From positions 1 to 64,000 of the forward strand of contig NZ_JADWYU010000085.1 of NCBI RefSeq assembly GCF_016786325.1: DNA of 64,000 nt, written 5' to 3'. This document shows, in pieces, positions 10,035-41,653 of the stretch (the first letter of the stretch is position 1; each line of letters opens with the position of its first letter). The notes beneath the pieces are model-generated. The model was not told where the DNA came from. It searched no databases and saw only the letters and a list, made by a program, of their open reading frames with translations. The translations under genes were made by a program, and so were the position numbers. Source of the stretch: Frankia nepalensis. Its GTDB lineage: Bacteria > Actinomycetota > Actinomycetes > Frankiales > Frankiaceae.

Positions 10035-10570
10035 GAGCCCTCCGCGGCCGAGACCTCCGCCGCCGAGACCTCCACCGCGGCGGGGGCGAACCGGTTGCCT
10101 GGCGCTCCCCACCACCCCGGCCGTGGCACGCCCTGGGGCCAGGCGCCGTCCAGCCAGACCAGGCCGGCGACGTACTCGGTGAGCCGCCAGCCGGTGGCGG
10201 TGCGGGCGAACCGGCAGTCGTAGTAGCCGCCGTCGGCGAGCAGCGTCTCCCCGCCCCGGCCGTCCAGGGTGATCATCTGGGTGAGCACGTAGGCGCGTCC
10301 GCTGGCGGTGTCGCCGTCGAGCTGGATGTCGACGTTGGAGAGGTAGTGCTGGCACGCGACGAAGATCGACAGTGACTCGCGCAGGTAGTCCACGATCTCC
10401 GGGTAGGCGGCGCGGACGCCACCGTTGCGGGTGAAGTCGACGACGGAACCCTCGGTGAACACCTCGGACAGCCGCGGCCAGTCGCGGGCGTCGACGGCGT
10501 GGGTGTAGCGGGTCAGCACCTCGTGGATCTCCAGGCGGTCCGCGGCCGCCTCGGCCCGGCTCGTCGTCAT
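10031..10570 (-). CDS. SnoaL-like / NTF2-fold protein (second of two)
   Basis: A 179-residue NTF2-like protein. It shows IHEVLTRYTHAVDARDWPRL with SEVFTEGSVVDF, CQHYLSNVDIQLDGDTASG and GGYYDCRFARTATGWRLTE. The TRYTHAVD...DW pattern is common to SnoaL_4 proteins next to SDRs. The C-terminus ends in a short repeat (VSAAEVSAAE). A good AGGAG site precedes the ATG. It is coupled by a 4-base overlap to the SDR downstream. Together with the other SnoaL-like gene it brackets that SDR, a repeated pair that suggests duplicated or sequential steps. Confidence 0.85.
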   Translation of the reverse strand: MTTSRAEAAADRLEIHEVLTRYTHAVDARDWPRLSEVFTEGSVVDFTRNGGVRAAYPEIVDYLRESLSIFVACQHYLSNVDIQLDGDTASGRAYVLTQMITLDGRGGETLLADGGYYDCRFARTATGWRLTEYVAGLVWLDGAWPQGVPRPGWWGAPGNRFAPAAVEVSAAEVSAAEGS

Positions 10571-10586
10571 GAACGGCTCCTGTCTC

Positions 10587-10632
10587 TGCTCGGCTGTCTC
10601 TTGTCTCTTGTCTCTGCTCGGCTGTCTCTGCT
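10587..10632. repeat. CT-rich short repeats in intergenic gap
   Basis: The motif TGTCTCTGCTCGGC recurs, interspersed with TGTCTCT copies, in the 123-base gap between two minus-strand genes. It is low-complexity and probably from slippage. It lies upstream of the second SnoaL-like gene's ribosome site. Confidence 0.55.
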
Positions 10633-10693
10633 CGCCGCCCGTCGTCGACGTGAAGGGGCCGAGGTGAAAGGGGGGCGTGCGTGACCGCGCGGG

Positions 10694-11458
10694 TCAGGTG
10701 ATCGTGTAGCCGCCGTCGACGGGCAGGGCGGCGCCGACGACGAACGACGCGGCGCCCGAGAGCAGCCACAGCACGGCCTCGGCGATCTCGTCGGCCTCGG
10801 CGATCCGGCCGATCGGGTGCAGCGCCGCCACCTGCGCCTCCGCCTCGGCGCTGCCCCGCATCCAGTCGTCGACCATGCGGGAGCGGGCCGTGCCGGGGCA
10901 GATGGCGTTGATCCGGATGCCCTGGGTGATGTACTCCAGCGCCGCCGTGCGGGTCAGCCCGATCACGCCGTGCTTGGCCGCCACGTAGTTGCCCATGCCC
11001 GGGAAGCCGATCAGGCCGGCGCCCGAGGACGTGTTCACGATCGCGCCGCCGCCGCGGGCCAGGATCGCCGGGATCTCGTGCTTCATCCCGTAGAACACCC
11101 CGGACAGCATCACGGCGATGCCGCGTTCCCAGACCTCGTCGGGCATGTCGGCGATGTTCGCGCCAGCACCGACGATCCCGGCGTTGTTGTGGGCGTAGTC
11201 CAGCCCTCCGTAGCGGCGGACGGTGAAGTCGACCATCGCCTTCACCGAGGCCGACTCGGCGACGTCGACGCGGACCGCCGCCGCGTCGCCGCCGTCGCCG
11301 GCGATCAGCTTGACGGTCTCCTCGGCCTGATCGAGGTCGAGGTCGGCGACGACGACGCGGGCGCCGGCGGCGGCGAGCCTGCGGGCGGTGGCACGGCCGA
11401 TGCCGCCCGCCGCTCCGGTGACGACGGCGACCTTGCCGTCGAAGTCGTAATGGATCAC
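10694..11458 (-). CDS. Short-chain dehydrogenase/reductase (SDR)
   Basis: A classical NAD(P)-dependent SDR of about 254 residues. It has TGAAGGIGRATARRL, VVADLDLDQ (Asp at the end of strand 2, NAD preference), NNAG, TSSGAGLIGFPGMGNY with YVAAK, and PVDGGYTIT at the end. I chose GTG at 11458 (VIHYDFDGKV), because AGGAG lies eight bases upstream. An upstream GTG at 11488 has no such site. It sits between the SnoaL/SDR pair and the ABC importer genes on the same strand, so it is probably part of the same catabolic operon. Confidence 0.9.
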   Translation of the reverse strand: MIHYDFDGKVAVVTGAAGGIGRATARRLAAAGARVVVADLDLDQAEETVKLIAGDGGDAAAVRVDVAESASVKAMVDFTVRRYGGLDYAHNNAGIVGAGANIADMPDEVWERGIAVMLSGVFYGMKHEIPAILARGGGAIVNTSSGAGLIGFPGMGNYVAAKHGVIGLTRTAALEYITQGIRINAICPGTARSRMVDDWMRGSAEAEAQVAALHPIGRIAEADEIAEAVLWLLSGAASFVVGAALPVDGGYTIT

Positions 11459-11565
11459 GTGTGCTGCTCCTGGCTGCTGATCGAGCACTCCGCCACGGCG
11501 GCGGACCGGCGGACGGGAACGGGTGGGCGCGAACGGGTGGACGAGAAGGGGGATGAAAAGGGTGG

Positions 11566-12348
11566 TCAGCCGAGATAGGCCTCCCGGACGAGCCGATCGG
11601 CGCGAACCTCGTCCGGCGTGCCGGCGGCGATGACCCGGCCGAGGTTGAGCACGACGACCCGGTGGCAGTGACGCATCACGAACGGCACGTCGTGCTCGAC
11701 GAGGACGACGCCGCAGCCCTGCTCCCGGCGGATCCGGGTGATCGCCTCCGCGAGCACGGCGGAGCCGGCGTCACCGAGACCCGAGGTTGGCTCGTCCAGC
11801 AGCAGCACGGTCGGGCGGTCGACGACCGCGCGGGCGAGCTCCAGCAGCCGGGCCTGCCCGATCGGCAGCGTCGCGGCGTACGCGTCCCGGCTGCCGGCCA
11901 GCCCGCACAGGTCGAGCATCTCCTCGGCGCGCCGCCGGCGGGCCCGCGCCACGGCGAGCCGCCGGGACAGGCCCAGGACGTCGGCGGCGATCCCTCCGGT
12001 GCGACCGCGCCATTCCTGCGCCGCGAGCAGGTTGTCGAGCACGGTCAGCTCGCCGAAGACCTGCTGGCGTTGGAAGGTGCGACGCAGGCCGTGCCGGGCC
12101 CGCCAGGTCGCCGACCGGCGGGTGACGTCGGCGCCGTCGAGCCACACCCGGCCGCTGGCCGGGGAGCGAAGGCCGGAGGTGACGTCGAACAGCGTGGTCT
12201 TGCCGGCGCCGTTGGGCCCGATCACGCCGACCACCTCGTCTCGGCCGACGTCCAGCGAGACGCCGTCGAGGCCGACGACCCCGCCGAAGCGGACGGTGAC
12301 GTCGGTGACCCGCAGCGCCGGGCGGGCCCCGGTCCCGGTCATCGTCAT
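11566..12348 (-). CDS. Branched-chain-type ABC transporter ATPase (LivG-like)
   Basis: An ATP-binding subunit of about 260 residues of the hydrophobic amino-acid uptake (HAAT) importer family. Walker A is GPNGAGKT, the signature is LPIGQARLLELARA (a LivG-type variant of LSGGQ), Walker B is VLLLDEPTSGL, and the H-loop is VLVEHDV. Its ATG overlaps the stop of the fused permease-ATPase gene upstream (ATGA). Together with that fusion and the lipoprotein gene it makes a complete importer. HAAT importers carry amino acids but also urea, amides and many aromatic or cyclic carboxylates; the neighbouring oxidoreductases suggest a carbon source and not an amino acid. Confidence 0.9.
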   Translation of the reverse strand: MTMTGTGARPALRVTDVTVRFGGVVGLDGVSLDVGRDEVVGVIGPNGAGKTTLFDVTSGLRSPASGRVWLDGADVTRRSATWRARHGLRRTFQRQQVFGELTVLDNLLAAQEWRGRTGGIAADVLGLSRRLAVARARRRRAEEMLDLCGLAGSRDAYAATLPIGQARLLELARAVVDRPTVLLLDEPTSGLGDAGSAVLAEAITRIRREQGCGVVLVEHDVPFVMRHCHRVVVLNLGRVIAAGTPDEVRADRLVREAYLG

Positions 12349-15212
12349 GGCGCTCCCGTCAGGTAGGCGTCGGCGAGGGTGTCGCGGTCGACGTCGCCGG
12401 CCGCCCGCGACCAGGCGACCCGGCCCAGGTCGAGGAACGCGACCTCGTCGGCGAGGTCGAGCACGTGACGCGCCTTCTCCTCGACGACGAGGACGGCGGT
12501 GCCGGCGGCGGCGAGCTCGGCGAACAGCTCGAGCACCCGCGCCGAGATCCGGGGCGCGAGCCCCAGGCATGGCTCGTCGGCGACGAGCACCCGTGGCGGG
12601 TCGAGCAGCATCGGGGCCAGCGCCAGCATCTGCTGCTCGCCGCCGGACAGGTTGCCGGCGGCGACCCGGCGGCGCGCGGCCAGCGCGGGGAACCGGTCGA
12701 GGACGGCCGCGACGCCGCCGCTCGCGTCGACGCCGCGCGGCAGCGCGAGGGCGAGGTTCTCGGTGACGGTGAGCGCGGGGAACACGCCGCGGGACTCCGG
12801 GGCGAACGCGAGCCCATGCCCGACCCGGCGATGGGCGGGCAGGGCGGTGACGTCCGCGCCGGCGAGCTCGATCGCTCCCGCCGTCGGGGCGAGGCCGCCG
12901 GCGATCACGGCGCAGACCGTGGACTTGCCCGCCCCGTTGGCGCCGAGCAGGACGGTCACGGCGCCGCGCCGGACCACCAGGTCGATTCCGCGCAGTACCT
13001 CGACGGCGCCGTAACCCGCCCGGACGCCGCGTAGCCGCAGGCCGACGGCGGGGCCGACGGCGGGGCCGACGGCGGGGCCGTCGGCCCGCGCGTCGCCCGG
13101 CCCGGTGGTCGTGAGCGGGTCGCCCGGCATCGAGGCGTCGACCTCCGGGTCCCTCACGGCCGCCAGGTCTCTCGCGGCCGCCAGGCCGCCCACGGCGGCC
13201 GGCTCCGAACCGTCGGCGTGGGCGCCGACGCCGGGCGCCCTGGCCGGGACGGCGCCTCCCGCGCCGTCCCCGGGGGTGTCGAGGCGCGCGCGCCGCTGTG
13301 CGCGCCGGCGCGCCCCGGCCAGCGCGCCGCTGATCTGGGTGACGATCCCGTCGGGCGCCTTGGCGAGCTGGATCGCGCCAAGGCCGAACAGGATGTCCCG
13401 GATCCTGGTCGAGCTGGTGACGTGCGAGAGGATCTCCGGGCTGGCGGCGAAGAACAGGCCGGCGACCACGGCGCCCGCGGGCCGGCGGATGCCGAACAGG
13501 ACCACGACCGCGAGCCAGCCGAGGCCGGTCATCGCGTCGAGGCTGGTGTGGCTGACGCTCTGGTTGACCGTCGCGAGCATGATCCCGCCGAGGCCCGCCA
13601 CGGCGGCGGACACCGTGAAGATCCGCAGCTTCGCCCAGGCGGCCGAGATACCCACCGAGGTCGCGGCCGCCGGCGCGGAGCGCACGGCGGTCACGGCGTG
13701 CCCGGACGGCGAGTCGCGCAGCGCCCCGATCGCGGCGCAGGCCAGCGCGACCAGCGCGAGCAGCACCCCGGCGAGCACCCGGTCGTCGGCCAGGTCCAAG
13801 CCGAGCAGGGTCGGCCGCGGGATCGTCCAGCCGTACTCGCCGTTGCTCAGCGCCTCCCAGGGGAACAGGACGGTGTCGCCGACGAGCGCCAGCGCGAGCG
13901 TGGCCAGCGCGAGCGCGAGGCCGCCGAGCCGCAGCGCCGGGACGGCGACCACCGCCCCGAGCAGGGCGGCGGCCGCCACCCCGATCAGCGCGGCCAGCAG
14001 GAACGGAAGACCGTGGCTGAGGCAGAGCCCGAACACGAGCGCGGCGAAGGTGACGAACGCGGCCTGCGCGAGGCTGACCATCCCGCCGAGGCCGGTGACG
14101 AGCACGAACGACAGGAAGATCATGCAGAAGGCGAGGCCCTGCACGATCAGGGTCAGCCAGTAGTCGTCGGCGCCGAACTGGGCGAAGAGGTAGAGCGCGA
14201 GCGCGGCGGCGGTCCAGGGCGCGTAGCGGCGCCAGGCCGCCAGCCCGGCGAGATGGTCGGGTGGCAGGCGCGCCTCGGCGACGGAGCTCGCGATCCGCCC
14301 GCGGTCCCTGGCCAGGTAGAACAGCCCGGCGAACAGCAGGACGTAGGGCAGCGCCGAGGCCGCGCCGTGGACCGAGTCGGCGAAGCGCGCGTAGCCGGAG
14401 AACATGCTCTGCGCGACGCCCAGCAGCAGGCCGCCGAGGAACGCCAGCGGCATCGAGCGCAGGCTGCCCAGCACCGCCGCGGCGGCGCCGACCGCGACCA
14501 GGCCGGTGAAGGAGGCGGGCGTCAGGCTGAAGAAGGGCGCGCCGATGACGCCGGTGAACCCGGCGAGGGCGAAGCTGCCCAGCACGACCAGCCTGGAGGT
14601 CGTCCGGGTGTCGACGCCGCGGTACTCGGCGAGCTGGCGGCGGTCGACGGTGGCCCGCACCCGCAGGCCGAGCCGGGAACGGTGCAGCAGCGCCCACAGG
14701 CCCGCGGCGATGACGGCCGCCGAGACGAGCACGATCGTCTGGTTGGAGTCGACGTGCAGCCAGTCGGTCAGGTGCCAGACGTGCTTCGGGGTCGGTCCGA
14801 TCCCGGGCGGATAGGTGATGTTGTCGCCGCGGGGGATGTCGGCGCCGAAGGTGTCGACCGCGGTCTCGACGAGGAACAGCGTGAGCGCGGGCAGCGCGAT
14901 CAGCAGGCCGACCGTTGCCACGATCTTGGTGGCGTCGTCCGCGTCCCGCAGCGGCCGGAACAGCACGGCGTCGACCACCAGGCCCAGCAGCGGCGCCGCG
15001 ACCAGCACGGCGACGGCGACGGCGAGCGGCACCGGCCAGCCGAGTCCCGTCGTCAGCTCGTAGTAGAGCAGCGCGATCGAGAACGCGACGGCGGTGTGCG
15101 CGAAGTTGAAGATCCGCAGGGCGGTCTGCTGCAGGACCAGGCCGACGGCGAGCAGCGAGTACACCGCGCCTGAAACCGCCCCGCTCACCAGCAGGGCGAT
15201 GAAGGTGTTCAT
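12345..15212 (-). CDS. LivH-LivM-LivF triple-fusion ABC transporter subunit
   Basis: One 955-residue chain holds both permeases and one ATPase of a HAAT importer. Residues ~1-290 are LivH-like (FIALLVSGAVSGAVYSLLAV start, EYRGVDTRTTSRLV loop). Residues ~310-620 are LivM-like (GLAFCMIFLSFVLVTGLGG; the loop SVGISAAWAKLRIF). A Pro/Ala/Arg linker with three GPAV repeats (12-base unit, about 13040-13084) follows. Residues ~715-950 are a LivF-like ATPase with Walker A GANGAGKS, signature LSGGEQQ, Walker B VLVADEP. I chose ATG 15212 (MNTFIALL). Two-domain LivM-LivG fusions are known; I do not recall H-M-F in one chain as common. There are no stop codons or frameshifts between the parts. Confidence 0.88.
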   Translation of the reverse strand: MNTFIALLVSGAVSGAVYSLLAVGLVLQQTALRIFNFAHTAVAFSIALLYYELTTGLGWPVPLAVAVAVLVAAPLLGLVVDAVLFRPLRDADDATKIVATVGLLIALPALTLFLVETAVDTFGADIPRGDNITYPPGIGPTPKHVWHLTDWLHVDSNQTIVLVSAAVIAAGLWALLHRSRLGLRVRATVDRRQLAEYRGVDTRTTSRLVVLGSFALAGFTGVIGAPFFSLTPASFTGLVAVGAAAAVLGSLRSMPLAFLGGLLLGVAQSMFSGYARFADSVHGAASALPYVLLFAGLFYLARDRGRIASSVAEARLPPDHLAGLAAWRRYAPWTAAALALYLFAQFGADDYWLTLIVQGLAFCMIFLSFVLVTGLGGMVSLAQAAFVTFAALVFGLCLSHGLPFLLAALIGVAAAALLGAVVAVPALRLGGLALALATLALALVGDTVLFPWEALSNGEYGWTIPRPTLLGLDLADDRVLAGVLLALVALACAAIGALRDSPSGHAVTAVRSAPAAATSVGISAAWAKLRIFTVSAAVAGLGGIMLATVNQSVSHTSLDAMTGLGWLAVVVLFGIRRPAGAVVAGLFFAASPEILSHVTSSTRIRDILFGLGAIQLAKAPDGIVTQISGALAGARRRAQRRARLDTPGDGAGGAVPARAPGVGAHADGSEPAAVGGLAAARDLAAVRDPEVDASMPGDPLTTTGPGDARADGPAVGPAVGPAVGLRLRGVRAGYGAVEVLRGIDLVVRRGAVTVLLGANGAGKSTVCAVIAGGLAPTAGAIELAGADVTALPAHRRVGHGLAFAPESRGVFPALTVTENLALALPRGVDASGGVAAVLDRFPALAARRRVAAGNLSGGEQQMLALAPMLLDPPRVLVADEPCLGLAPRISARVLELFAELAAAGTAVLVVEEKARHVLDLADEVAFLDLGRVAWSRAAGDVDRDTLADAYLTGAP

Positions 15213-15283
15213 CCGGTCAGGTCCTCCCGGGCCTCGGCACCACCTCGCGGGCACCACCTGGCGGGCATCGCCTGGCGGGCATC

Positions 15284-15336: not shown

Positions 15337-16656
15337 CTACCGCGGCACGCTGGCGATCGGGACGTTGCCCGTGCAGGTCATCGGGCTGACCGGCTGGTAG
15401 CTGGTGCCCTCGATCTGGACCAGCGCCGAGCAGGGGGCCGGCTCGCCGTGCCCGGCCGGGAACGAGATCGGCCCGATGCCGGGCTGGCTGGCCGTCGGCT
15501 GGTAGGTGAAGCTGCCGTTGACGACCTCGTCGAAGCGTTCCGGCGTCAGGTCACGTCCGGCGGCCTGGAGCATCTGCACGAAGACGTCGGCCATCCAGTA
15601 GCTCTGGATCGCGCCGAGCGTCAGCTTGGCGTTCGGGTCGACGGCCTTGATGTCGTCGGTGAGCTGTGTGATGGCGTCGCCGCCGAACTCGGTCGGCAGG
15701 AACTGGGTGCTCACGTAGCTGCCCTGCAGCGCCGCCGTGATGTCCGCGCTGCCCTCGAGCAGGCCGGGTGAGTAGGTGATGTAGTTCAGCAAGGCGCCCT
15801 TGTAGCCCGCGGTGTGCAGCCCGGCGCTGATCCCCACGGTGTTCGCGAACAGGCTGTTGAACACGACCAGGCCAGGCGGGGCGCCGTCGTCGCTCGTCAT
15901 CACGGCCTGGACGAACGGGGTGTAGTCGACCTTCTCGGTGGTGGGCACGTTCGCCTTGGCGTAGACGACCTTCGCGCCGGCGGCGAGGAAGGCCGCCCGC
16001 ACCGTCTTGAGGCCGTCCGTGCTGTTGGCCGAGTCATCGGAGACGATCGCGACCGTCGTGCCGGCGCCGAGCCTGTCGATGATGGGCTTGGCGAGCGAGG
16101 TGTTCACGACCGTGGCGCCGGGCGGCTGGATGCATCCGTTGTAGCCGAAGGCGAAGCCGGCCTTGTCGCCACTGCACTGACCGGGCATGAAGCCCCAGCC
16201 GACCGACGGGACCTTCTGGGCGTTCAGGTAGTCGGAGCTGGCGGGCAGGAAGCCGGCGCCGAGCATGGGCACGATCGCGAAGACCTTGTCCCGCTGGACG
16301 GCCTTGTGGACGAGCTGCAGGTTGGTGTCGCCGGCCTCCTGGTCGTCGGACACCCCGATGTAGGAGATCGTGCGGCCGTTTATGCCGCCCTCCCGGTTCG
16401 CCCGCTCGAAGCGGGCCTTGGCGCCGATGTCGGCGCCTGGGTAGCCGCCGCTCGCGCTGGTCAGCGCGGCGATGCCACCAATCGTGATGCTGGTGTCGGT
16501 GACCCCGCGCGGGCCGTCCGATCCGCCGGAGGAGCCACAGGCGGCGGCGACCACGGCGAGCGCGACCAGTCCCGCCACGTTCGCTAACAACGGGTACCGG
16601 CGGATATCGCGCGTCCATCGCGAGGTTCCCGGGGTGGATCGTGGGCGCATCGTCAC
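15337..16656 (-). CDS. ABC transporter substrate-binding lipoprotein (LivJ/K-like)
   Basis: A 439-residue periplasmic-binding-protein-like lipoprotein of the HAAT family. After a basic N-terminus there is a hydrophobic segment ending in the lipobox VVAAAC, with Cys near residue 41 as the lipid anchor. SITIGGIAALTSASGGYPG and GGINGRTISYIGVSDDQEAG mark the type 1 binding fold, and LGAIQSYWMADVF lies in lobe 2. GTG at 16656 has GGGAG four bases upstream; ATG at 16650 is an alternative. It is first in line for the importer genes to its left. Its far upstream region holds the TetR-type palindrome at 16913-16934. Confidence 0.92.
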   Translation of the reverse strand: MTMRPRSTPGTSRWTRDIRRYPLLANVAGLVALAVVAAACGSSGGSDGPRGVTDTSITIGGIAALTSASGGYPGADIGAKARFERANREGGINGRTISYIGVSDDQEAGDTNLQLVHKAVQRDKVFAIVPMLGAGFLPASSDYLNAQKVPSVGWGFMPGQCSGDKAGFAFGYNGCIQPPGATVVNTSLAKPIIDRLGAGTTVAIVSDDSANSTDGLKTVRAAFLAAGAKVVYAKANVPTTEKVDYTPFVQAVMTSDDGAPPGLVVFNSLFANTVGISAGLHTAGYKGALLNYITYSPGLLEGSADITAALQGSYVSTQFLPTEFGGDAITQLTDDIKAVDPNAKLTLGAIQSYWMADVFVQMLQAAGRDLTPERFDEVVNGSFTYQPTASQPGIGPISFPAGHGEPAPCSALVQIEGTSYQPVSPMTCTGNVPIASVPR

Positions 16657-17121
16657 GTACTCCCTATGAGCAGGGCGGATCAGGATTCGGCGGGCCAGGC
16701 GGTATCACGTTCGGCGCGGCTGAATATGCGCGGCGGCGTTCGCGCGCGGGTCGTGGCGCGTCTGTCGGGCCGCGTCGCCGGCCGGGCGACGCGGCGACGG
16801 GCCCGAAACTCGGGGCGTAGGGCCCTGGATCCGGTGAGCACACGGACCACTCGAGCCCGTGGCCAGCGGCCCTGGGCCGCCCGCCAACCGATTAAACACG
16901 CCGGACGGCTTTGCTTACAAGTGTTAGTTTGTAACCTGTACGCGGGGTGCCGGAGCATGTCGGCTCAGGTCAGGGGCCCGGTCCGGCCACCCGAGTCACC
17001 CCGAGGTGTGGCGGGGCGATAACGTGCCGCTTCGACGCGCTCTCGCCGCGTCGCCGGTCCCGTTCCGGCCGGCGGATACCGGGCGAGCAGTATCTGGCGC
17101 GGCCGGCTGACAGGAGGAGCA
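16657..17121. other. Divergent intergenic region with one operator
   Basis: This 465-base stretch separates the lipoprotein (minus) and TetR (plus) genes. Apart from an AT-richer island around 16895-16940 that holds a palindrome, it is GC-rich without a convincing gene. Both promoters should be here. Confidence 0.6.
16913..16934. promoter_or_regulatory. TetR-type operator, site A
   Basis: TTACAA (16915-16920) and TTGTAA (16929-16934) form an inverted repeat around GTGTTAGT. The 16-mer GCTTACAAGTGTTAGT (16913-16928) matches site B at 21504-21519 in 14 of 16 positions, and 15 bases (ACAAGTGTTAGTTTG) are identical at both places. It lies in the gap between the importer lipoprotein and the TetR gene. 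Confidence 0.65.
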
Positions 17122-17754
17122 TTGGCGTCGCGACGCGAAGAGATTCTCGACATCGCGCGGAGACAGTTCGCCGCCAACGGCTACCAGGCCGCCTCGATGC
17201 GGGACCTCGCGGAGGCCAGCGGGCTGATGGCGGGCAGTCTTTACTCGCATTTCAAGAGCAAGACCGAGATGATCACGGATATCGTCGTCCGTTTCTACGA
17301 CACGCTTCTCCCGCGCCAGGCCGCCGTGCTCGAGGACCCGACGGAGAACGGCGCGGCCAAGGTCGCCCGAATGATCCAGGAGGTCTTCACCGTCTGCGCC
17401 GCGCACCGCCTGGAGCTGACGATCCTGCACTACGACTGGACCGCGCTGTCCAGCATCGAGGAGGTCATGTCCCGCAGCAGCCGCACGCTCGACCTGTGGA
17501 CCATCGCGCTGCGGGCGGGCGTCGCGGACGGGTCGATCGACCCGGAGGTCGACCCGGTGCCGATGGTCCGGATCATCACCAGCTCCATCCACAGCCTCCT
17601 GGACACCAAGCGCTACGGGCATCTGCCACTCGCCCCCGAACAGGAGAGCCAGCTGCTCGCGCAGCTGCGCCGCGCCCTGCTGGAGGGCATCGTCGCGTCC
17701 CCGGCCCGGCCGGCCGACACGCCCGGCGGCGCCCGGCCGGCACGGCCGACCTGA
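17122..17754 (+). CDS. TetR/AcrR family transcriptional regulator
   Basis: A 210-residue TetR-family repressor. The N-terminal helix-turn-helix reads EEILDIARRQFAANGY, ASMRDLAEASGLMAGSLYSH and FKSKTEMI. The C-terminal ligand domain is of the type seen in regulators of lipid or steroid catabolism (ending LLEGIVASP plus a Pro/Ala tail), but it does not identify a ligand. It starts at TTG with a strong CAGGAGGAG upstream. It is the only plus-strand gene in the 8.8-21.5 kb cluster, and two copies of one palindrome flank it, which makes it the obvious local regulator. Confidence 0.9.
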   Translation: MASRREEILDIARRQFAANGYQAASMRDLAEASGLMAGSLYSHFKSKTEMITDIVVRFYDTLLPRQAAVLEDPTENGAAKVARMIQEVFTVCAAHRLELTILHYDWTALSSIEEVMSRSSRTLDLWTIALRAGVADGSIDPEVDPVPMVRIITSSIHSLLDTKRYGHLPLAPEQESQLLAQLRRALLEGIVASPARPADTPGGARPARPT

Positions 17755-17848
17755 CCCGGACCGTCGCCGCGCGCCGCCCGGCGCCCGCCGGGCGGCCCCG
17801 GCGACGCGCCGGGCCACGCCCCAGTCCGGGCCACGCCCCGCGCCGCCG

Positions 17849-19042
17849 TCACCACTCGTCCTCGAACGGGGCGTGGGACAACCGGCTCAGCCGCTCCGGT
17901 CCGTCGTCGCGGACCAGCACGGTCTCGGCGCCGAGGTAGCCGCCCTCCCCCGGCTCCCACACATAGGGCTGCAGCACCAGCACGGTTCCGGCACGGATCG
18001 GCGCGTCGACCGGCGCGGGGCCGCGCGCCCCACCGAGGAACGGCGGCTCGACGCCGAGGCCGATCCCGAAGGCGATCGGCAGCGGCGGCAGCGGCTCGCC
18101 GGTCGCCGCCCAGGCCGCCGCCAGGTCGCGCACGGTCGCCCCCGGCCGGCAGGCCGCGGCGAGCCTGTCGTAGGCGGCCCGCCACCGCCGGTAGAGGGCG
18201 CGCCGCGGCGCCGTCGGACCGGAGGCGGCCGGCCCCGCGACGAGCCGGGTCCTGGCGACCGTTCCCTCGTAGCCGGCATGGTGGGCGGCACCGCTCAGCG
18301 CCACCAGGTCTCCCGCCCCGAGGGTCCTGGCCGAGGGCCGCAGCCGCAGCGGCACGCCGTCCGCGAAGCCCGCGGCCTCGCGCGGGGTGGCGCAGAACGT
18401 GCCCTCGGACGCGGCGTGGTTGAGGCCGTTGCGGGCCAGCGCCGCGTGGAACGCGCCCTTCACCGTCAGCTCCCGCGCGCCCGGGGCCGCGAGCGCGGCC
18501 GCCTCGTGCAGCGCGCCCTCGACGAGCGCGAGCGCCGTGCGCAGACACCGGACCTCGCCGGGCAGCTTGACCGAGCGCAGCGGGCGCAACAGCGCCTCGG
18601 CGTCCACCAGCTCGGCGCGCGGGGCGAGGTCGCGCAGCAGCGTCGCCATCGACGCCGACATCCCGTCGACGGCGATCCGGCGCGCCGCCGCGAGCCCGTC
18701 GATCCGGGCCACGTTGGCCTGGATCAGCCGCGGGTTCCACACCAGGCCGGACAGGCGCTCGCGCGGGATGTCCGGCGGCACCCCGTCGTCCCAGGTGGTG
18801 ACCAGCAGGTGCACGGCCGCGTCGGCGCGGACCAGCGCGCAGACCGGCCCCCAGCCGGTCACGACCGCCCGCCACAGCGGCCGGTGACCGGCGACGTAGC
18901 GGGCGTTGCCCTGCCGGCCGAGCAGCAGGACGTCGATGTCGTGCTCGGCCAGCGCGGCGAGCACGCGCGCCCGGCGCTGCGCCCGCAGGCTGGGGAAGTC
19001 GATGCCGGCGCCGTCCTCGTACGCCATGGTCGTGATCGTCAC
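17849..19042 (-). CDS. M24-fold protein with degenerate metal site
   Basis: A 397-residue protein with the creatinase N-domain and the M24 'pita-bread' domain of Xaa-Pro peptidases. In the active family five ligands D, D, H, E, E hold two metals. Here the first region reads LVALSGAAHHAGYEG (both Asp missing), the His region reads IAFGIGLGVEPP (no GHG), and the first Glu region reads VLVLQPYVWEPG (Gln for Glu); only GAETVL keeps the last Glu. Metal-dependent peptidase activity is therefore unlikely; a creatinase-like metal-free hydrolase or an inactive partner is possible. GTG at 19042 has GAGGAG upstream. The second M24 gene upstream keeps all ligands. Confidence 0.82.
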   Translation of the reverse strand: MTITTMAYEDGAGIDFPSLRAQRRARVLAALAEHDIDVLLLGRQGNARYVAGHRPLWRAVVTGWGPVCALVRADAAVHLLVTTWDDGVPPDIPRERLSGLVWNPRLIQANVARIDGLAAARRIAVDGMSASMATLLRDLAPRAELVDAEALLRPLRSVKLPGEVRCLRTALALVEGALHEAAALAAPGARELTVKGAFHAALARNGLNHAASEGTFCATPREAAGFADGVPLRLRPSARTLGAGDLVALSGAAHHAGYEGTVARTRLVAGPAASGPTAPRRALYRRWRAAYDRLAAACRPGATVRDLAAAWAATGEPLPPLPIAFGIGLGVEPPFLGGARGPAPVDAPIRAGTVLVLQPYVWEPGEGGYLGAETVLVRDDGPERLSRLSHAPFEDEW

Positions 19043-19166
19043 GTTGTCGCTCCTCGCGGCGGGGGCAGCCACGGGCCGGGCCGGCCGGCGCGGCCACGGG
19101 CCGCCGCCTGGTGGGCGCGGTCGGTGGGCGGGTGATCGGTGGGCAGCCGGTCGGCCGGCGGGTGGG

Positions 19167-20363
19167 TCATGCGTCGATCTCGTTCGGGTAGCGGCTGATC
19201 CGCTCGTGCCCGTCGGGGGTGATGACGACGAGCTCCTCGCAGCGCCAGCCGGCGTGCCCCTCCTGCCAGGTGACCGGCTCGATGACGATCGCCATCCCGG
19301 GTTCCAGCACGAAGCGCTCGTCGAACTCGGGGCCCCGGTCGGAGCCGATCTGCTGCGACTCGCCGCCCTCCAGCCCAAGCGTGTGACCGAGGAAGAAGTG
19401 GTCGAGCCAGGGTCGTCTGCCGTCGTTCAGGCTGGTCGCGAGCTTCACCAGCTCCGCGCCGCTCACCCCGGGCCGCAGCTGCTCGAGCACCGCGTCGGTG
19501 ATGTCCTGCCAGCGCCGGTACAGGCCGCGCAGCGTCGGGCTCGGCCGGCCGCACACCCAGGTCCGGCCGACGTCCGAGGCGTAGCCCTCGTAGCCCGTCA
19601 CGGTGTCGGTCCAGATCACGTCACCCTCGCGGACGACGTGGTCGTTCGTGATCAGGTTGAACGGGATGTCGCCGTTCACGCTCCACGGCCCGTCCGAGAT
19701 CCGCGGCGGCATCGCCTGCCACACCGGATCCAGGAAGTTGCACGTCGCGCCGAGCTCGAACAGCCGCTCGTAGAACGGGCCGGACAGCTCGTTGAGCCGG
19801 ATGCCCGGGCGCAGCGCCCGCTCGGCGGCGTGGGTCGCCGCCTCGTTGATCTCCCAGGACCGGCGCATGCACTCGACCTCGTCCGGGGTCTTGTGCAGCC
19901 GCGCGGCGACCAGCAGCGGCCCGGCGGGCGCCAGCGGCGACGGCGCGAGCAGCGCCGGCAGCCGCAGGTACATCGGCGCCGTGTAGTCGTCCACGGCGAC
20001 CGGGTCGCCGCGGCCGCCGGTCAGCTCCCTGATCCGCGCGGCGGCCGCGACGACGCCTTCCTCGGTCTCCAGCTGCAGGCAGGGATGGACGTGGTCGGCG
20101 GGCAGGTCGGCCGGCGCGGCGTCCGGCCAGGCGGTGAACAGGTGCGGGTGCTCGGCGCCGGCGACGACCAGCGCGACGGCGCGTTGCTGGTAGACGCGGT
20201 TGTTGTCGCCCTGCACCGGGTTCGCGCCGGTGGCGTAGAGCACTCCCCCGCTGGTCAGCAGGAACAGCGCGCCCAGGCCTTCGGCGGCCATGAGGTCCTG
20301 GAGCTTGCGGTGCCGCTCCCGGTGCATCCGGGGGAGGTCGAGCTCCCTGAACGGGGGTGTCAT
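19167..20363 (-). CDS. M24 family metallopeptidase / creatinase-fold hydrolase
   Basis: A 398-residue member of peptidase family M24 (Xaa-Pro aminopeptidase, ectoine hydrolase and similar C-N hydrolases). All metal ligands are visible: Asp in VIWTDTVTG and in YEGYASDVGRT, His in FFLGHTLGLEGG, Glu in MAIVIEPVTW, and Glu in RCEELVVI. The N-terminal half is a creatinase_N domain (LGALFLLTSGGVLYATGANP). It forms a minus-strand run with the degenerate M24 copy (gap 124 bases of GGTGGGCG-type repeats) and an SDR. A role in opening an amide or lactam in the imported compound is an inference from context. Confidence 0.9.
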   Translation of the reverse strand: MTPPFRELDLPRMHRERHRKLQDLMAAEGLGALFLLTSGGVLYATGANPVQGDNNRVYQQRAVALVVAGAEHPHLFTAWPDAAPADLPADHVHPCLQLETEEGVVAAAARIRELTGGRGDPVAVDDYTAPMYLRLPALLAPSPLAPAGPLLVAARLHKTPDEVECMRRSWEINEAATHAAERALRPGIRLNELSGPFYERLFELGATCNFLDPVWQAMPPRISDGPWSVNGDIPFNLITNDHVVREGDVIWTDTVTGYEGYASDVGRTWVCGRPSPTLRGLYRRWQDITDAVLEQLRPGVSGAELVKLATSLNDGRRPWLDHFFLGHTLGLEGGESQQIGSDRGPEFDERFVLEPGMAIVIEPVTWQEGHAGWRCEELVVITPDGHERISRYPNEIDA

Positions 20364-20460
20364 CGGGTTCTGCGCCTTTCGTCGAACGGGATCGGTCCGA
20401 GGGCCTGGCCAGGCGCGCCGGGTCTGGGCGGGCCGGACGGGCAGGCGGCCGCGGGCCGGG

Positions 20461-21249
20461 TCATGCGATGGGGCAGCTTCCGCCGTCGGCCATGAGGGTC
20501 TGGCCGGTCACGAACCGCGCCGCCGGGGAGATCAGGAACTCGGCGACGGCGCCGACGTCGGCCACGGGGTCACCGAGCCGGCCGAGCGGGTTGCGGCCGA
20601 GCACCCGTTCCCGCATCGCCGGGTCGCCCGCGAACGCCCGCGCCATCGCCGGGGAGTCGGCGAGCGGCGCGACGCAGTTGACCCGGATCCCGTCCGGGCC
20701 CCATTCACGGGCGAGCACGCGGGCCAGCCCACGTTGCGCGGCCTTGGCGGCGGCATAGGCGGGCAGCAGCCACTTGCCCTCGAAGCCGGCCTCCGACGTC
20801 GTCACGAGCACCGACCCGCCGGACCTCCGGAGCAGCGGATGGGCGGCGACGGCCAGGCGCCGCAGCCCGGTGACCGCGACGGCCACGTGCTCGGCGAGCT
20901 CGGCGACGCTGATCTCGGCCGCTGGCGCCGACCGGGCGGACAGGCCGGAGGTCGCGTTGTGCACCAGGGCGTCGAGCCGCCCATGAGCCCGATCGACGGC
21001 GTCGACCAGCCCGGCCACCGCGGCCGGGTCCGTCACGTCGCAGGGCCAGGCCCGGCCGAGGCCACCGGCGGCCGTCACCTCGTCCGCGACCGCCGCGGAG
21101 GCGGCCGCCCGGCGGGCCGCGATCCACACCTCCCAGCCCGCGGCCCCGCAGGCCACCGCGATGCCGCGGCCCACCCCACCGGACGCGCCGGTCACGACCG
21201 CGACCCTGCGCCGCGGGCCGTCCGCCGCCGGCGCTCCCGGGGCGCTCAC
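20461..21249 (-). CDS. Short-chain dehydrogenase/reductase (SDR), atypical
   Basis: An SDR of about 262 residues. It has TGASGGVGRGIAVACG, WIAARR at the end of strand 2 (Arg-Arg, suggesting NADP), VTTSEAGFEGK, and YAAAK as the catalytic Tyr/Lys. The usual NNAG is replaced by HNATSG. The end GQTLMADGGSCPIA is standard. It starts with GTG whose first bases overlap the stop of a small upstream frame (GTGA). It lies first or second in the operon that continues with the two M24 genes, directly behind operator site B. Confidence 0.88.
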   Translation of the reverse strand: MSAPGAPAADGPRRRVAVVTGASGGVGRGIAVACGAAGWEVWIAARRAAASAAVADEVTAAGGLGRAWPCDVTDPAAVAGLVDAVDRAHGRLDALVHNATSGLSARSAPAAEISVAELAEHVAVAVTGLRRLAVAAHPLLRRSGGSVLVTTSEAGFEGKWLLPAYAAAKAAQRGLARVLAREWGPDGIRVNCVAPLADSPAMARAFAGDPAMRERVLGRNPLGRLGDPVADVGAVAEFLISPAARFVTGQTLMADGGSCPIA

Positions 21250-21464
21250 CGGGCCCGCCCGCGGTCCACACGCGCCGCCGAGCCCGTGTTCCCTGCCGTG
21301 CCGGGTGTGATCCCCCAGACGGCGAGCCCGGCGTTCCAGCCGTCGTCATTCCAGCGGTCGCTCGCCGGAGCGGGCACCGCGCGCCGGGCCCGCGCGCCGA
21401 CGGCCGCCGTGAACCCGGCGCGCGGCCCCGAGGACACCCCGAGGAACAGGACGGACGACCTCAT
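21246..21464 (-). CDS. Possible small protein upstream of SDR, coupled start
   Basis: A short frame ends with a stop that overlaps the SDR start codon (GTGA). From the ATG at 21464 (GGTGG nearby) it gives about 72 residues, starting MRSSVLFLGVSSGPRAGF. An in-frame ATG at 21503 abuts operator site B and would give 85 residues with almost no mRNA leader. The composition is Ala/Arg/Gly-rich and I know no family. It may be only a translated leader that couples the SDR. Confidence 0.3.
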   Translation of the reverse strand: MRSSVLFLGVSSGPRAGFTAAVGARARRAVPAPASDRWNDDGWNAGLAVWGITPGTAGNTGSAARVDRGRAR

Positions 21465-21503
21465 CGGCACCACCAGATCCAGACCAGACGAGACGCGGGT
21501 CAT

Positions 21504-21519
21504 ACTAACAAGTGTTAGT
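21504..21519. promoter_or_regulatory. TetR-type operator, site B (perfect palindrome)
   Basis: ACTAACA-AG-TGTTAGT is a perfect 16-bp palindrome right upstream of the minus-strand SDR/M24 operon. It shares 15 identical bases with site A near the TetR gene (ACAAGTGTTAGTTTG). Two such sites at the two promoters of one cluster point to one regulon. Confidence 0.7.
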
Positions 21520-21887: not shown

Positions 21888-24800
21888 ATGACGGCCATGG
21901 ACCACCGCGACACGGACCACCGCGACACGGACCACGGCGGCATGGACCACCGCGACACGGACCAGCGCGACACGGACCACCGCGGCGAGGAACGGACCAG
22001 CGGCCACGGGAACGGCCCCTTGCCGGACGCCGAGCGGGGGCGCGGCGCCGGGGGCAACGGGAGCCGCGACGCCGGCACCTTCGCCGGCGGGGTCGCCTCC
22101 GACGTGCGGCACGCCGGAGTGCGCGCCGGCGTGCGCCGGCTCGGGCAGCTGCTCGGCGAGTCCCTGACCCGGCACGAGGGCGGCGAGCTGCTGGAGCTCG
22201 TCGAGCGGGTCCGCTCGCTGGCCCGCGGCGGCGGCGACCGCGGCGACCTCCAGCGGGTGCTCGCCGCCGTCGACCACCCGACGGCGATCGTGCTGGCGCG
22301 CGCGTTCACCGCGTACTTCCAGCTCGCCAACATCACCGAGCAGCTGCACCGGGCACGTGAGCTGGCCGACCGCCCGCGCGGCGCGCTCGAGGAGACCGGC
22401 GTCCGGATCGCCGCCGCCGTGTCCGCGGGCCAGCTCGACCCACGGCTGCCCGCCCAGGTGATGGACCGCCTCGAGCTGCGCCCGGTGTTCACCGCGCACC
22501 CGACCGAGGCGAGCCGCAGGTCGGTGCTCGACGTGCTGCGCGGGATCGCCGAGCTGCTCGACGCGGCCGACGACCCACGCGCGCACCCGTCACGGCGCGC
22601 GGTGGTCGAGCGCCGGCTCGCCGAGGCGGTCGACGCGCTCTGGCAGACCGACGAGCTCCGGGTGGAGCGTCCGAAGCCCGCGGACGAGGCCCGCTCCGCC
22701 GCCTACTACCTGACCTCGATCGCCACGGACGTGCTGCCCGGGCTGTTGGAGGAGCTCGACGGCGCGTTCGCCGCGGTCGGGGCCGGGCTGCCGGTCACCG
22801 CGCGTCCGCTGCGGTTCGGCTCGTGGGCCGGGGGCGACCGCGACGGCAACCCGAACGTCACCCCCGCCGTCACCCTCGACGTGCTCACGCTGCAGCACGA
22901 GTTCGGCATCCGGGTCCTGCTGGGCGCCGTCGACGGCCTCATCAGGGACCTGACGGCCTCGACCCGGGTCGTCGAGGTCAGCGACGAGCTGCTGGCCAGC
23001 CTCGCGGCCGACCGGGCCGCCCACCCCGAGGTGTACGACCGGTTCATCCGGCTCAACGCCACGGAGCCGTACCGGCTGAAGTGCAGCTACGTCCGCGCCC
23101 GGCTGACGGCGACCCGCGACCGGCTGGCCGCCGGCACCGCCCATGTGCCCGGCCGCGACTACCTGAGCGCGCGCGAACTGCTCGCCGACCTGCTCCTGAT
23201 GCACCGCTCGCTGTCGGAGAACCGGGGCGAGCTGGTGGCGGACGGACCGCTGCGGCGCGCGATCCGGGTGGCGGCGGCGGTCGGGATGTCGCTCGCGACG
23301 CTCGACATCCGCGAGCACGCCGAGCGCCACCACGCCGCGCTGGGCGCGCTCTACGACCGGCTCGGTGAGCTGGGGCGCCCGTACGCCGACCTCGACCGCG
23401 CCGAACGCATCGCGCTGCTGTCACGCGAGCTGGCGGGACGCCGGCCATTGTCCGGCGCGGCGGCGCCCGTCCCCGCCGACCCGACGGCGGCGGCGGTGCT
23501 GGAGCTGTTCACCACGATCCGCGTCGCGCTGGACCGGTTCGGCGAGGACGTCATCGAGAGCTACATCGTCTCGATGACCCGGGACGTCGACGACATCCTC
23601 GCCGTCGTCGTGCTCGCCCGCGAGGCCGGCCTCGTCGACATCACCCCCGGCACCGGCACGACCGGCGGCCCAGCCCAGGACGGCGCGGGCGCGGAGCACG
23701 GCGCGGGAACGCGGGACGGCGCGGGAACGCCGGACGGCATGCGCGCGCGGGCGCGGATCGGGTTCGTGCCGCTGTTCGAGACGGTCGCCGAACTGCGCGC
23801 CGCCGGACGGCTGCTCGACGGCATGCTCGCCGACCCGGCCTACCGGGCGGTGGTCGCCGCGCGCGGGAACCTCCAGGAGGTCATGCTCGGCTACTCCGAC
23901 TCCTCGAAGGACGCCGGCATCACCGCGTCCCAGTGGGAGATCCACAAGGCGCAGCGGGAACTGCGCGACGTCGCGCGCCGGCACGGCGTCGTGCTGCGGC
24001 TGTTCCACGGCCGCGGCGGCTCGGTCGGCCGGGGCGGCGGGCCGACCGGCGAGGCGATCCTCGCCCAGCCGTTCGGCACCCTCGACGGCCCGATCAAGGT
24101 GACCGAGCAGGGCGAGGTGATCTCGGACAAGTACACGCTGCCCCAGCTTGCCCGCCACAACCTGGAGATCGCGCTGGCCGCCGTGCTGGAGGCGTCGATC
24201 CTGCACCGCGCGTCCCGGCAGCCGGCGGACGTGCTCGCCGAGTGGGACCAGACAATGGACGCGGTGACCGAGTCCGCGCGCGCCGCCTACCGGCGCCTGA
24301 CGGCCGACCCGGCGCTGGTGCCGTTCTTCCTCGCCGCGACCCCCGTCGACGAGCTCGCCCACCTCAACATCGGCTCCCGCCCGTCGCGCCGGCCGGGCGG
24401 CGCCGGCGGGCTCGCCGACCTGCGCGCGATCCCGTGGGTGTTCGGCTGGACCCAGTCCAGGATCATCCTGCCCGGCTGGTTCGGGGTCGGCACCGGCCTG
24501 GCCGCCGCCCGGGCGGCCGGCGCGGGCGACACGCTCGCCGAGATGTACCGGTCATGGCACTTCTTCCGCACGTTCCTGAGCAACGTGTCGATGACGCTGG
24601 CGAAGACCGACCTGCGTATCGCCGCCGACTACGTCACCACGCTGGTTCCGGCCGAGCACGCCAGCCCGTTCGAGGTGATCCGCGCCGAGCACGAGCGCAC
24701 GGTCGCCGAGGTGCTGGCCGTCACCGGGGCGTCGACGTTGCTGGAGCACGCACCGGTGCTCCGGCAGACGCTGGAGGTCCGGGACCTGTACCTCGCCCCG

Positions 24801-25405: not shown

Positions 25406-26119
25406 TCAGCGCGGCTGCGCCTCGCGGATCCCGGCGACGACGATGTCGAGGCCCAGGCGGTAGTAGTCAGGCGGGCTCGCGCAGTTGGTGAGGGCGTCGG
25501 CCGCGGCGACGACGTTCGGGTAGCGCCGCGGCGAGAGCGCGGCGAGGCGGGCTCGCTTCGCCCGGATCTCGTCGTCGCGGGCCTCCGGGTCCCGGATGCG
25601 GGGAGCCCCGGGCTCGCTGGTGACCAGCGTGATCGCCGAGGTCACCGCCATCGTTCCGAGTTCGGCCGCCCGTTCGACGGAGAAGCCGGCCGAGCGCAGC
25701 ATCGCCAGGCCGCGTTCGGCGAGCTCCAGCCCCGGCGGTGACGACATGATCCTCGGCAGTACCAGGCCCGCCACGGCCGGATGCTCCCGCACCGCCTCGG
25801 TGAGCGCGCCCAGCAGGTCGCGCAGCTGCTCGTGCCAGGGGGCGTCCGACGGTTCCGCCAGCGCGACGTTGGCGAACAACCGCTCGGCGATGCCGTCGAA
25901 CAGCTCCTCCTTGTCCCGGAAGTGCCGGTAGAGCGCCATCGGCGTGACCTGGTGCTCCTGGGCGAGCCGACGGATGGTCACCGCGTCGAGTCCCTCGACG
26001 TCCGCGAGAGCGATCGCCCCGGCCACGACCAGGTCCCTCGTCAGAGGCTCCCGAACCCGCCCACGCGTCCGCGGGGACGGGTGCCGCCCCGCCGCTCGTC
26101 CGGTCTCCGCTGCCGTCAC
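25406..26119 (-). CDS. TetR family regulator of the adjacent efflux pump
   Basis: A 237-residue TetR-family repressor with a TetR_C-type ligand domain. After an Arg/Pro-rich N-tail the helix-turn-helix reads LVVAGAIALADVEGLDAVTI, RRLAQEHQVTPMALYRHFR and DKEELFDGIA. Later segments (HPAVAGLVLPRIMSSPPG) fit the C-terminal ligand-binding domain. GTG at 26119 is the start that keeps the basic tail and lies close to the operator; the ribosome site is weak. It is divergent from an MFS exporter, with three copies of a 9-base palindrome between them. Repression of the pump and itself, lifted by a drug-like ligand, is the classic arrangement. Confidence 0.88.
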   Translation of the reverse strand: MTAAETGRAAGRHPSPRTRGRVREPLTRDLVVAGAIALADVEGLDAVTIRRLAQEHQVTPMALYRHFRDKEELFDGIAERLFANVALAEPSDAPWHEQLRDLLGALTEAVREHPAVAGLVLPRIMSSPPGLELAERGLAMLRSAGFSVERAAELGTMAVTSAITLVTSEPGAPRIRDPEARDDEIRAKRARLAALSPRRYPNVVAAADALTNCASPPDYYRLGLDIVVAGIREAQPR

Positions 26120-26130
26120 GTTGACAAGTC

Positions 26131-26197
26131 TACGGCGTACACCTAAAGTCCGGCTAGATCTACGTCGTATACATACATCGCAGACATACGTCGTATG
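26131..26197. promoter_or_regulatory. Triple TetR operator, TAC-GNC-GTA
   Basis: Three copies of the 9-bp palindrome TACG(G/T)CGTA lie at 26131-26139, 26161-26169 and 26187-26195; the last extends to CATACGTCGTATG. Start-to-start spacing is 30 and 26 bases. They fill the AT-rich gap between the regulator and the efflux gene, so both promoters can be covered. Confidence 0.75.
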
Positions 26198-26246
26198 CGT
26201 ATGCCGTAAGCGGACGGCGTAGCCCCGCGAGGAACATGAGGAAGCA

Positions 26247-27719
26247 ATGCGACGCAGTCCCTGGGCAACCCTGGTCGTGCTGGCGCTCGCCCAGTTCGCG
26301 GTGGTGCTCGACGTGACGATCGTCAACGTGGCCCTGCCCGACATCCAGCGGGATCTCGGCTTCTCCGCGGCGGGCCTCCAATGGGTGATCAACTCTTACA
26401 CGCTGTTGTTCGGTGGTTTCCTGCTGCTCGGCGGGCGCGCGGCCGACCTGCTCGGCCGGCGCCGGATGTTCGTCGCCGGCCTGGTCCTGTTCGGCGCGGC
26501 GTCGCTGGTAGCCGGCCTCTCGACCACGTCGGGCGTCCTGGTCGCGACCCGCGCCGCGCAGGGGCTGGGCGGCGCGCTGATGTCCCCGGCCGCGCTGTCG
26601 ATCCTCACCGTCACGTTCCCGCAGGGCCGGGACCGCAACATCGCGCTCGGGGTCTGGGGCGGTCTCGCCGGCCTCGGCGGCACCCTCGGCGTGGTGGCGG
26701 GTGGCGTTCTCGTCGACGCGCTGAGCTGGCGGTGGGTGTTCTTCGTGAACGTGCCGATCGTCGTGGCGCTGCTCGCCGTGGTCCGGGTCTTCGTGGCCGA
26801 GAGTGTCGCCGAACCACGCGAGGCGGACGGCCAGACCGGCCCGGCGGGCCAGGAGGCCCCCGACGGACGGCGGGCGTTCGATGCGGCTGGAGCCATCCTC
26901 GGCACCGCGGGGCTGCTCGCCGTCGTCTACGGCGTGGTGCGCGCCGAACCGCTCGGCTGGGGGTCATGGGAGGTCATGGGTGCGCTCACCGGTGGCGTGG
27001 CGCTGCTCGCGGCGTTCGTCGTCGTGGAGGTCCGGTCGGTCGCGCCGCTCGTGCCGCCGAGACTGTTCCGGTCTCGCTCGCTCACGACGGCGAGCCTCGC
27101 GCTCGCGCTGAACGGCGGCGCCTTCCTGTCGATGTTCTTCCTCACCGCGCTCTTCCTGCAGCAGGTGCGCGGCGACTCGGCGCTCGCCGCCGGCCTGCAC
27201 TTCCTGCCGATGGGCGTCGCGGCCGTCGTGGCCGCCGCCGTGGCCTCCCAGCTCGTCACCCGGATCGGCACCCGGCCGGTACAGCTCGGCGGCGCGGCGC
27301 TCAGCGTGGCCGGCCTGGTGACGCTCATCCAGGCGGGCGCGGACGGCAGCTACCTGACCGCGCTGCTCCCCGGGCTGGTGCTGTTCGGCTTCGGCATCAT
27401 CGGCGTCGGCGTGCCCGCGCAGATCGCCGCCGTCGTGGATGTCGAACCGCGTGACGCGGGCGCGGCCTCCGGCGTCGTGACGACCTTCTACCAGATCGGC
27501 GGGGCACTTGGCCTCGCCGTCGTGAGCACGCTCGCCAACTCCCGGACGGGGGCGGCGCTGGCCGGCGGCGCGTCCGAGCAGACCGCGCTGGTCGACGGCT
27601 TCCACCGCGGCCTGGCGGTGGCGACCGGCCTCGCGGCCGCGGGAGTCCTGGCGGCCCTCGCGTCACCGCGGGTCGCGGCGGCCAAGGCCCGAGCGACGGA
27701 GGCGGCCGCGGCGGTCTGA
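26247..27719 (+). CDS. MFS drug exporter, DHA2 (14-TM) family
   Basis: A 490-residue membrane transporter of the DHA2 drug:H+ antiporter group (QacA/EmrB-like). It shows WATLVVLALAQFAVVLDVTI and NVALPDIQRDLGFS, motif A GGRAADLLGRRRMF after helix 2, the antiporter motif C region LGGTLGVVAGGVLVD in helix 5, and 14 hydrophobic segments. GAGGAAG precedes the ATG. The gene is divergent from a TetR repressor. It most likely exports a lipophilic drug or a metabolite; the substrate is unknown. Repeat element A follows about 130 bases after its stop. Confidence 0.92.
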   Translation: MRRSPWATLVVLALAQFAVVLDVTIVNVALPDIQRDLGFSAAGLQWVINSYTLLFGGFLLLGGRAADLLGRRRMFVAGLVLFGAASLVAGLSTTSGVLVATRAAQGLGGALMSPAALSILTVTFPQGRDRNIALGVWGGLAGLGGTLGVVAGGVLVDALSWRWVFFVNVPIVVALLAVVRVFVAESVAEPREADGQTGPAGQEAPDGRRAFDAAGAILGTAGLLAVVYGVVRAEPLGWGSWEVMGALTGGVALLAAFVVVEVRSVAPLVPPRLFRSRSLTTASLALALNGGAFLSMFFLTALFLQQVRGDSALAAGLHFLPMGVAAVVAAAVASQLVTRIGTRPVQLGGAALSVAGLVTLIQAGADGSYLTALLPGLVLFGFGIIGVGVPAQIAAVVDVEPRDAGAASGVVTTFYQIGGALGLAVVSTLANSRTGAALAGGASEQTALVDGFHRGLAVATGLAAAGVLAALASPRVAAAKARATEAAAAV

Positions 27720-27847
27720 CCGCGACCAGCCCGAACGAAGAACGCCCGAACGAAGAACTACAGATTGCCGCGCCTCCGAAGAGTCCGGATGCGCTGGTCG
27801 GAGCACCCGACAAAGTCCCCCATGAGTTCCGAGGTCCGGCGTGGGCG

Positions 27848-28031
27848 AGCCACGTGGGGCGATGGAAATCGCCCCACGTGGCTGGCCGGTCCTGGGATCG
27901 GTCCATGGGCTGTGGTGCCCGACGAGGAGGTCCTCGGCACCATGACGTCTGGGATCATGGTCCAACGCCCCACAGGTCATGACCAGCCGCCCGTCAGGGC
28001 CGCCCCGCTCAACGGTCACGAGGTTTCCCGT
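27848..28031 (+). repeat. Structured 3' repeat element, copy A
   Basis: A perfect hairpin with 16-bp arms (AGCCACGTGGGGCGAT, loop GGAA) is followed by GGCCGGT and a conserved ~144-base tail starting CCTGGGATCGG. Inside the tail GGTGCC...CGGCACC forms a second stem and CCATGA...TCATGG a third. Copy B matches the tail at about 126 of 144 positions by hand alignment. It lies downstream of the MFS gene in the same direction, and its last bases overlap the final codons of the LuxR gene on the other strand. Confidence 0.8.
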
Positions 28032-40665: not shown

Positions 40666-40847
40666 CTGAAGAAACCTCGGAACCGACGAGCGGGGCGGCC
40701 CGAGGGGCAGCTGGTCATGACCTGTGGGGTTTTCGACCATGATCCCAGACGCCATGGTGCCGAAAACCCGCTCGTCTGGCGCCATAGCCCATGGACCGAT
40801 CCCAGGACCGGCCGGCCGCCAGGGATCTTCCATCGCCACAGGCGGCC
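40666..40847 (-). repeat. Structured 3' repeat element, copy B
   Basis: Read on the minus strand, a hairpin with GGCCGCC/GGCGGCC arms (40841-40847 and 40814-40820) is followed by GGCCGGT, CCTGGGATCGG and a tail to 40666 that matches copy A closely. It starts 22 bases after the stop of the minus-strand TrmH-type gene, in that gene's direction. The hairpin loop keeps CGATGGAA as in copy A although the arms differ. Confidence 0.8.
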
Positions 40848-40868
40848 GGTCGAAGGCCGGCTCCATCA

Positions 40869-41390: not shown

Positions 41391-41653
41391 CCGTTGGTGG
41401 AGACCACCTCCGCATCGCCGACTCGACCGGCCGACCGGCCCGCTTCCCACGATCTCCACATGAGCACGGCGCTTCGCGGCGCGCCGAAACCATCGACGAC
41501 GACAGTCGCGTCGACGATACCGTGACCAGCAGGCGGCGAGTCCGTCTTGTCGCTGGCCGCTTCGACGCCCACGCGGGTCGCATGGTGTACGTAAGCTCTC
41601 GGGCGAGCGCCGCGGAGATGCCCGAACTCGGGCAACGGCCTCTGGGAGTGCCG

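Follow-up and report, generated by a model that had tools for sequence, protein, structure and literature searches.

Gene organization of the locus

The window, by which we mean the whole 64,000-nt stretch of Frankia nepalensis DNA analysed here, carries genes for a branched-chain-amino-acid-type ABC importer, a TetR-family regulator and an operon of SDR and M24 genes, together with two short palindromic sites, A and B, that lie roughly 4.6 kb apart. The features, in window coordinates, are as follows:

8774–9223, minus strand: SnoaL_4 protein, end of the importer-side run
9240–10040, minus strand: second SDR of the importer-side run, the C-terminal part of a mechanically called 509-aa ORF (9240–10769); start approximate
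10031–10570, minus strand: short ORF flanked by the two SDRs; its translation, judged by eye alone, is probably SnoaL-like
10694–11488, minus strand: SDR downstream of the importer and in the same direction
11566–12333, minus strand: second importer ATPase, LivG-like (PF00005, PF12399)
12345–15257, minus strand: importer permease with two BPD_transp_2 stretches, fused to an ATPase (PF02653, PF00005)
15337–16656, minus strand: SBP of the importer (PF13458, 2e-44)
16913–16928, no strand: site A, GCTTACAAGTGTTAGT
17122–17754, plus strand: TetR-family regulator, KstR2-like, 210 aa, TTG start, Shine-Dalgarno AGGAGGAG
17849–19041, minus strand: M24b, an M24 homologue that in alignment lacks most metal ligands (PF00557, 5.2e-21)
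19167–20363, minus strand: M24a, M24-family metallopeptidase-like, metal ligands in place in alignment (PF00557, 8.4e-33)
20461–21249, minus strand: SDR2, a catalytic-type SDR (TGASGGVG, YAAAK)
21246–21503, minus strand: SDR1 remnant, an ORF of 72–85 codons
21504–21519, no strand: site B, ACTAACAAGTGTTAGT

Beyond the importer the run continues with an SDR, the small ORF, an SDR and SnoaL, so that a regulon covering it would link import to several oxidoreductases as well as to the M24 pair; the SDR at 10694–11488 is possibly part of the importer transcription unit. On the other side, site B had been read from the sequence as lying before an SDR/M24 operon. Its position stands, but an ORF that had gone unreported, the SDR1 remnant, lies between the site and the SDR start at 21249. 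The remnant consists of about 50 N-terminal and about 20 C-terminal codons joined in frame across an internal deletion of around 400 bp, and its end overlaps the start of SDR2. Because it aligns with both ends of SDR1, the window operon must once have had SDR1 and lost its middle. Intact SDR1 was found on another contig of this genome (C39) and in the congener G007, and nowhere else. These two copies (L002 795–1454 and L038 2946–3605) lack the TGxxxGxG cofactor and YxxxK catalytic motifs, and SDR1 is a probable pseudo-SDR partner.

M24b is likewise a probable pseudoenzyme partner. Active and degenerate M24 genes stand side by side in the window (17849–20363) and also in Mycobacterium branderi (L099 11947–14296), where the pair has different neighbours (MarR, P450 and amidohydrolase), and paired M24 genes occur in 12 further loci; the sequences suggest that M24a and M24b may form an obligate enzyme–pseudoenzyme complex.

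Other parts of the window hold unrelated features. A PEP-carboxylase-like ORF starts with a repeated DHRDT peptide/DNA repeat (21888–21990), and its true start may lie further downstream. Similar peptide stretches (MDRSQDRPA...) at two distant places, 27397–28034 and 40791–41525, suggest a putative repeated element. At 25406–27719 a second TetR gene (TetR_C_1) and an MFS transporter gene overlap and point away from each other, a classic efflux pair, and there the operator copy is absent. Rfam gave no RNA family in the window.

Two matched palindromes in the window

Site B is a perfect 7-2-7 palindrome, as the sequence-only reading had described it, and precedes the SDR1-remnant/SDR2/M24 operon. 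Site A agrees with it in 14 of the 16 bases, again as described, and the two share an uninterrupted 15-base identity, ACAAGTGTTAGTTTG. Located in the gap that separates the TetR gene from the divergent SBP gene, 193 bp from the TetR start and 256 bp from the SBP start, site A contains the core CTWACAAGTGTTAG but is an imperfect palindrome and the weakest copy. A second perfect dyad, TTACAA-N8-TTGTAA, overlaps it at 16915–16934. The weakness of this copy, its long distance from either start codon and the overlapping dyad speak against the regulon favoured below.

A scan of the window for ACTAACANNTGTTAGT with up to three mismatches returned exactly two places, 21504–21519 (no mismatch) and 16913–16928 (two mismatches), so the earlier statement that the window has no third copy is correct; a third copy lies elsewhere in the genome. 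The same scan of dinucleotide-shuffled sequences gave a mean of 0.10 matches, and two matches were reached in one of 100 shuffles. It could be argued that the resemblance of A to B is a coincidence, or marks a promoter element common to both rather than an operator, since short palindromes are common: the window, at 72.6% GC, has 25 perfect 7-2-7 palindromes. Site B is the sole one of these with at least ten A/T bases, however, and its full 16-mer found no match with up to two mismatches in 300 Markov-simulated 64-kb sequences. A chance match between A and B is very unlikely.

Further copies in the genome and in a congener

The 10.7-Mb draft genome was scanned for the 16-mer with up to two mismatches, a check proposed with the sequence-only reading, in which many scattered matches were to count against a regulon. 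Such scatter is absent: the pattern occurs at two places with at most one mismatch and at four with at most two, three of the four at a related gene set. Matches with three mismatches number 22, fewer than the 48 of a reversed-pattern control, and are thus background. The additional near-perfect site, C39:9822–9837 (ACTAACAAGTGTTAGC, one mismatch), lies outside the window and directly precedes the intact SDR-like gene SDR1 (219–237 aa). The fourth place, C376:96280 (ACTAGCATGTGCTAGT, two mismatches), differs in its spacer and lacks a clear gene context, and we treated it as a likely chance match. Divergent from the C39 site, a small SCO4226-like (nickel responsive) gene (L002 1679–1963) starts about 163 bp away and could be a further target of the operator.

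Across 395 actinomycete genomes the exact core CTWACAAGTGTTAG occurs seven times, four of these being site A, site B, the C39 site and a site in G007; at least one of the three others falls inside a long coding frame. A perfect CTAACAAGTGTTAG was also seen just upstream of an XRE-type-looking regulator ORF in an unrelated actinomycete (G161, L096 1501–1514).

Among 57 relatives, G007 alone has the site with at most one mismatch (C159:3646, one mismatch). There it precedes SDR1-SDR2-M24a-M24b, which is the window operon in intact form and has SDR1 overlapping SDR2; identity to the proteins of this genome is 82% for SDR2, 88% for M24a and 73% for SDR1. B, C39 and G007 have the 14-bp core in common without a difference, whereas the 50-bp flanks align at only 52–56% with gaps, about the level expected of unrelated sequence, and the similarity between window and C39 DNA stops 7 bp past the site. 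Since the core bases have stayed fixed while the flanks diverged to about random, the conserved core reads as a footprint. The M24-pair homologues from mycobacteria and others (12 loci) have no matching site at up to three mismatches.

At B, C39 and G007 a TANNNT hexamer resembling a −10 element (TAGTAT, TAGTGT and TAGGGT) runs into the edge of the site, which favours a shared promoter element. A sigma-70 promoter scan found no consensus promoter near the sites, a point against the regulon favoured below. Against both coincidence and a promoter element stand the rarity of the core in the 395 genomes, its repeated placement at SDR1-type promoters and the conserved two-fold symmetry, and we regard this explanation as highly improbable. 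The recurrence of the switch at one more gene and in a relative points instead to a real shared control element. Sites A and B are well supported as matched functional operators, as judged from how rare they are in the genome, from the third copy before a homologous gene and from their persistence in a congener whose flanks have diverged.

A candidate binder, TetR 17122

The regulator gene at 17122 is, by Pfam domain search, the only one between sites A and B, as had been noted from the sequence. Its product matches TetR_N (PF00440, E 1.2e-15) above the cutoff and TetR_C_24 (PF17932, E 4.4e-6) marginally, at 27.4 bits versus a cutoff of 26.4. Site A, imperfect as it is, places a palindrome in the upstream region of this gene, the usual autoregulatory arrangement for a TetR protein. 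The nearest chains of solved structure are those of KstR2 (E 4.6e-18), and the recognition segments are closely alike (LMAGSLYSHFKSKTEM versus ILSGSLYHHFASKEEM in KstR2; helix GSLYSHF versus GSLYHHF). A single-sequence structure prediction reached a pLDDT of 48 and was discarded. TetR 17122 is the best candidate binder of the operator.

The earlier claim of a TetR regulon with two operators has thus held in part: the operators are real and shared, the promoters number at least three, and the TetR protein as their binder is what we infer. The last point follows from G007, which keeps the site and the operon with no TetR or SBP orthologue detected (best SBP match 35%) in a draft of 850 contigs and 93% completeness, in which a gap where the TetR gene would be is possible; its best TetR match, at 33%, belongs to the KstR2 type and is itself preceded by a KstR2 box. 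A search of the family (35 genomes) and the 395-genome class sample at E ≤1e-22 likewise found no orthologue of TetR 17122, except for KstR2-like matches of 29–33%. The related-locus search and the protein searches of relatives and of family/order and class samples gave nothing beyond about 33%, which makes footprinting on TetR orthologues impossible. Literature searches on the motif together with TetR brought up nothing relevant, only coincidental word hits.

The G007 genome invites the explanation that the operators are real but bound by a regulator encoded elsewhere, TetR 17122 being another target or unrelated. With 45 TetR-like matches to TetR 17122 in the Frankia nepalensis genome, other binders are available. 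The G007 operon contig, however, breaks off within M24b, beside the expected place of the TetR gene, TetR 17122 stands alone between the sites with one of them in its own upstream region, and near the C39 site no regulator gene was recognized except a LuxR-type ORF. We consider a regulator from elsewhere rather unlikely.

KstR2 itself, the steroid-ring regulator, might control the operon if the sites were variant KstR2 boxes. Of the 10 defined positions of AnCAAGnnCTTGnT, the segment AACAAGTGTTAGTT agrees with 8, the spacer reads AG in each of the four sites, and KstR2-like genes with KstR2 boxes exist in this genome (C94), G006 and G007. This best register is nevertheless broken in the right half, which here reads TTAG, whereas in published boxes the CAAG/CTTG cores are almost fully preserved (PMC3068626). 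Site B is also perfectly symmetric about another centre, and G006 has KstR2 and neither the site nor the operon. Control by KstR2 seems to us improbable. We likewise rejected the sites as KstR2 operators of the AnCAAGnnCTTGnT form, and TetR 17122 as the KstR2 orthologue: its identity to KstR2 is about 30%, and proteins closer to KstR2, with ACCAAGCGCTTGGT-type boxes in front of their genes, are encoded on C94 of this genome (C94:9404) and on C585 of G007.

A probable small repressor regulon

We favour a single small repressor regulon with the sites as its operators, which a dimer of TetR 17122 (17122–17754) probably binds at three places. The regulon is a real one of ordinary kind, with at least three promoters in this genome. 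The dimer would bind the 16-bp palindrome at A, B and C39. At site A it would regulate its own gene and control the SBP-permease-ATPase-SDR-SnoaL run, presumably one importer transcript; at site B, the SDR1-remnant/SDR2/M24a/M24b operon; and on C39, the stand-alone SDR1 gene. In the uninduced state TetR would block transcription, and the location of site B immediately upstream of the SDR1 remnant, with the TANNNT overlap, would fit a promoter-blocking repressor. TetR may then be released by a small molecule that has been imported, or by a product of its breakdown, upon which importer and enzymes would be induced together.

More tentatively, evolution may have split the operon while keeping one switch, with SDR1, probably a non-catalytic partner of SDR2, persisting elsewhere and a KstR2-like TetR that has shifted to a wider operator as the regulator. 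On this doubtful but possible reading, because the intact SDR1 paralogue on C39 stands under its own copy of the same operator, the regulon would still supply both partners in step.

The analysis offers a testable operator and regulon for an uncharacterized uptake/catabolic cluster, adds to it one gene outside the window, and presents a case of an operator that accompanies a gene that left its operon. If binding is shown, the pairing of a recognition helix like that of KstR2 with another predicted operator would help to relate TetR helices to DNA specificity. In other respects the arrangement is that of an ordinary TetR regulon, and systems of this kind are well known.

Comparison with known TetR systems

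KstR2 is a TetR regulator of cholesterol ring degradation in Mycobacterium and Rhodococcus, with the 14-bp operator AnCAAGnnCTTGnT (PMC3068626). The system described here shares with it a near-identical recognition-helix core, a short palindrome at a few promoters that include the regulator's own, and catabolic targets. It differs in the operator, which in the window is the 16-bp ACTAACA-NN-TGTTAGT, in the low identity of the regulators (about 30%) and in the target genes. The presumed half-site ACTAAC of the window, whose palindrome is spaced 2 bp wider, resembles the KstR2 half-site ACCAAG, a likeness that is no more than suggestive. BkaR, a TetR protein of branched-chain keto-acid genes, is similarly autoregulatory and has its 16-bp palindrome in the region of its own promoter, at neighbouring genes and at a further promoter, but its motif is GTTANTNNNNANTAAC and its targets are others (PMC3920632). 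Finally, a short palindrome between a TetR gene and a divergent gene is the pattern of generic TetR cluster control (PMC4482099); in the present case there are additional sites, one at a distance of 4.6 kb and one on a different contig.
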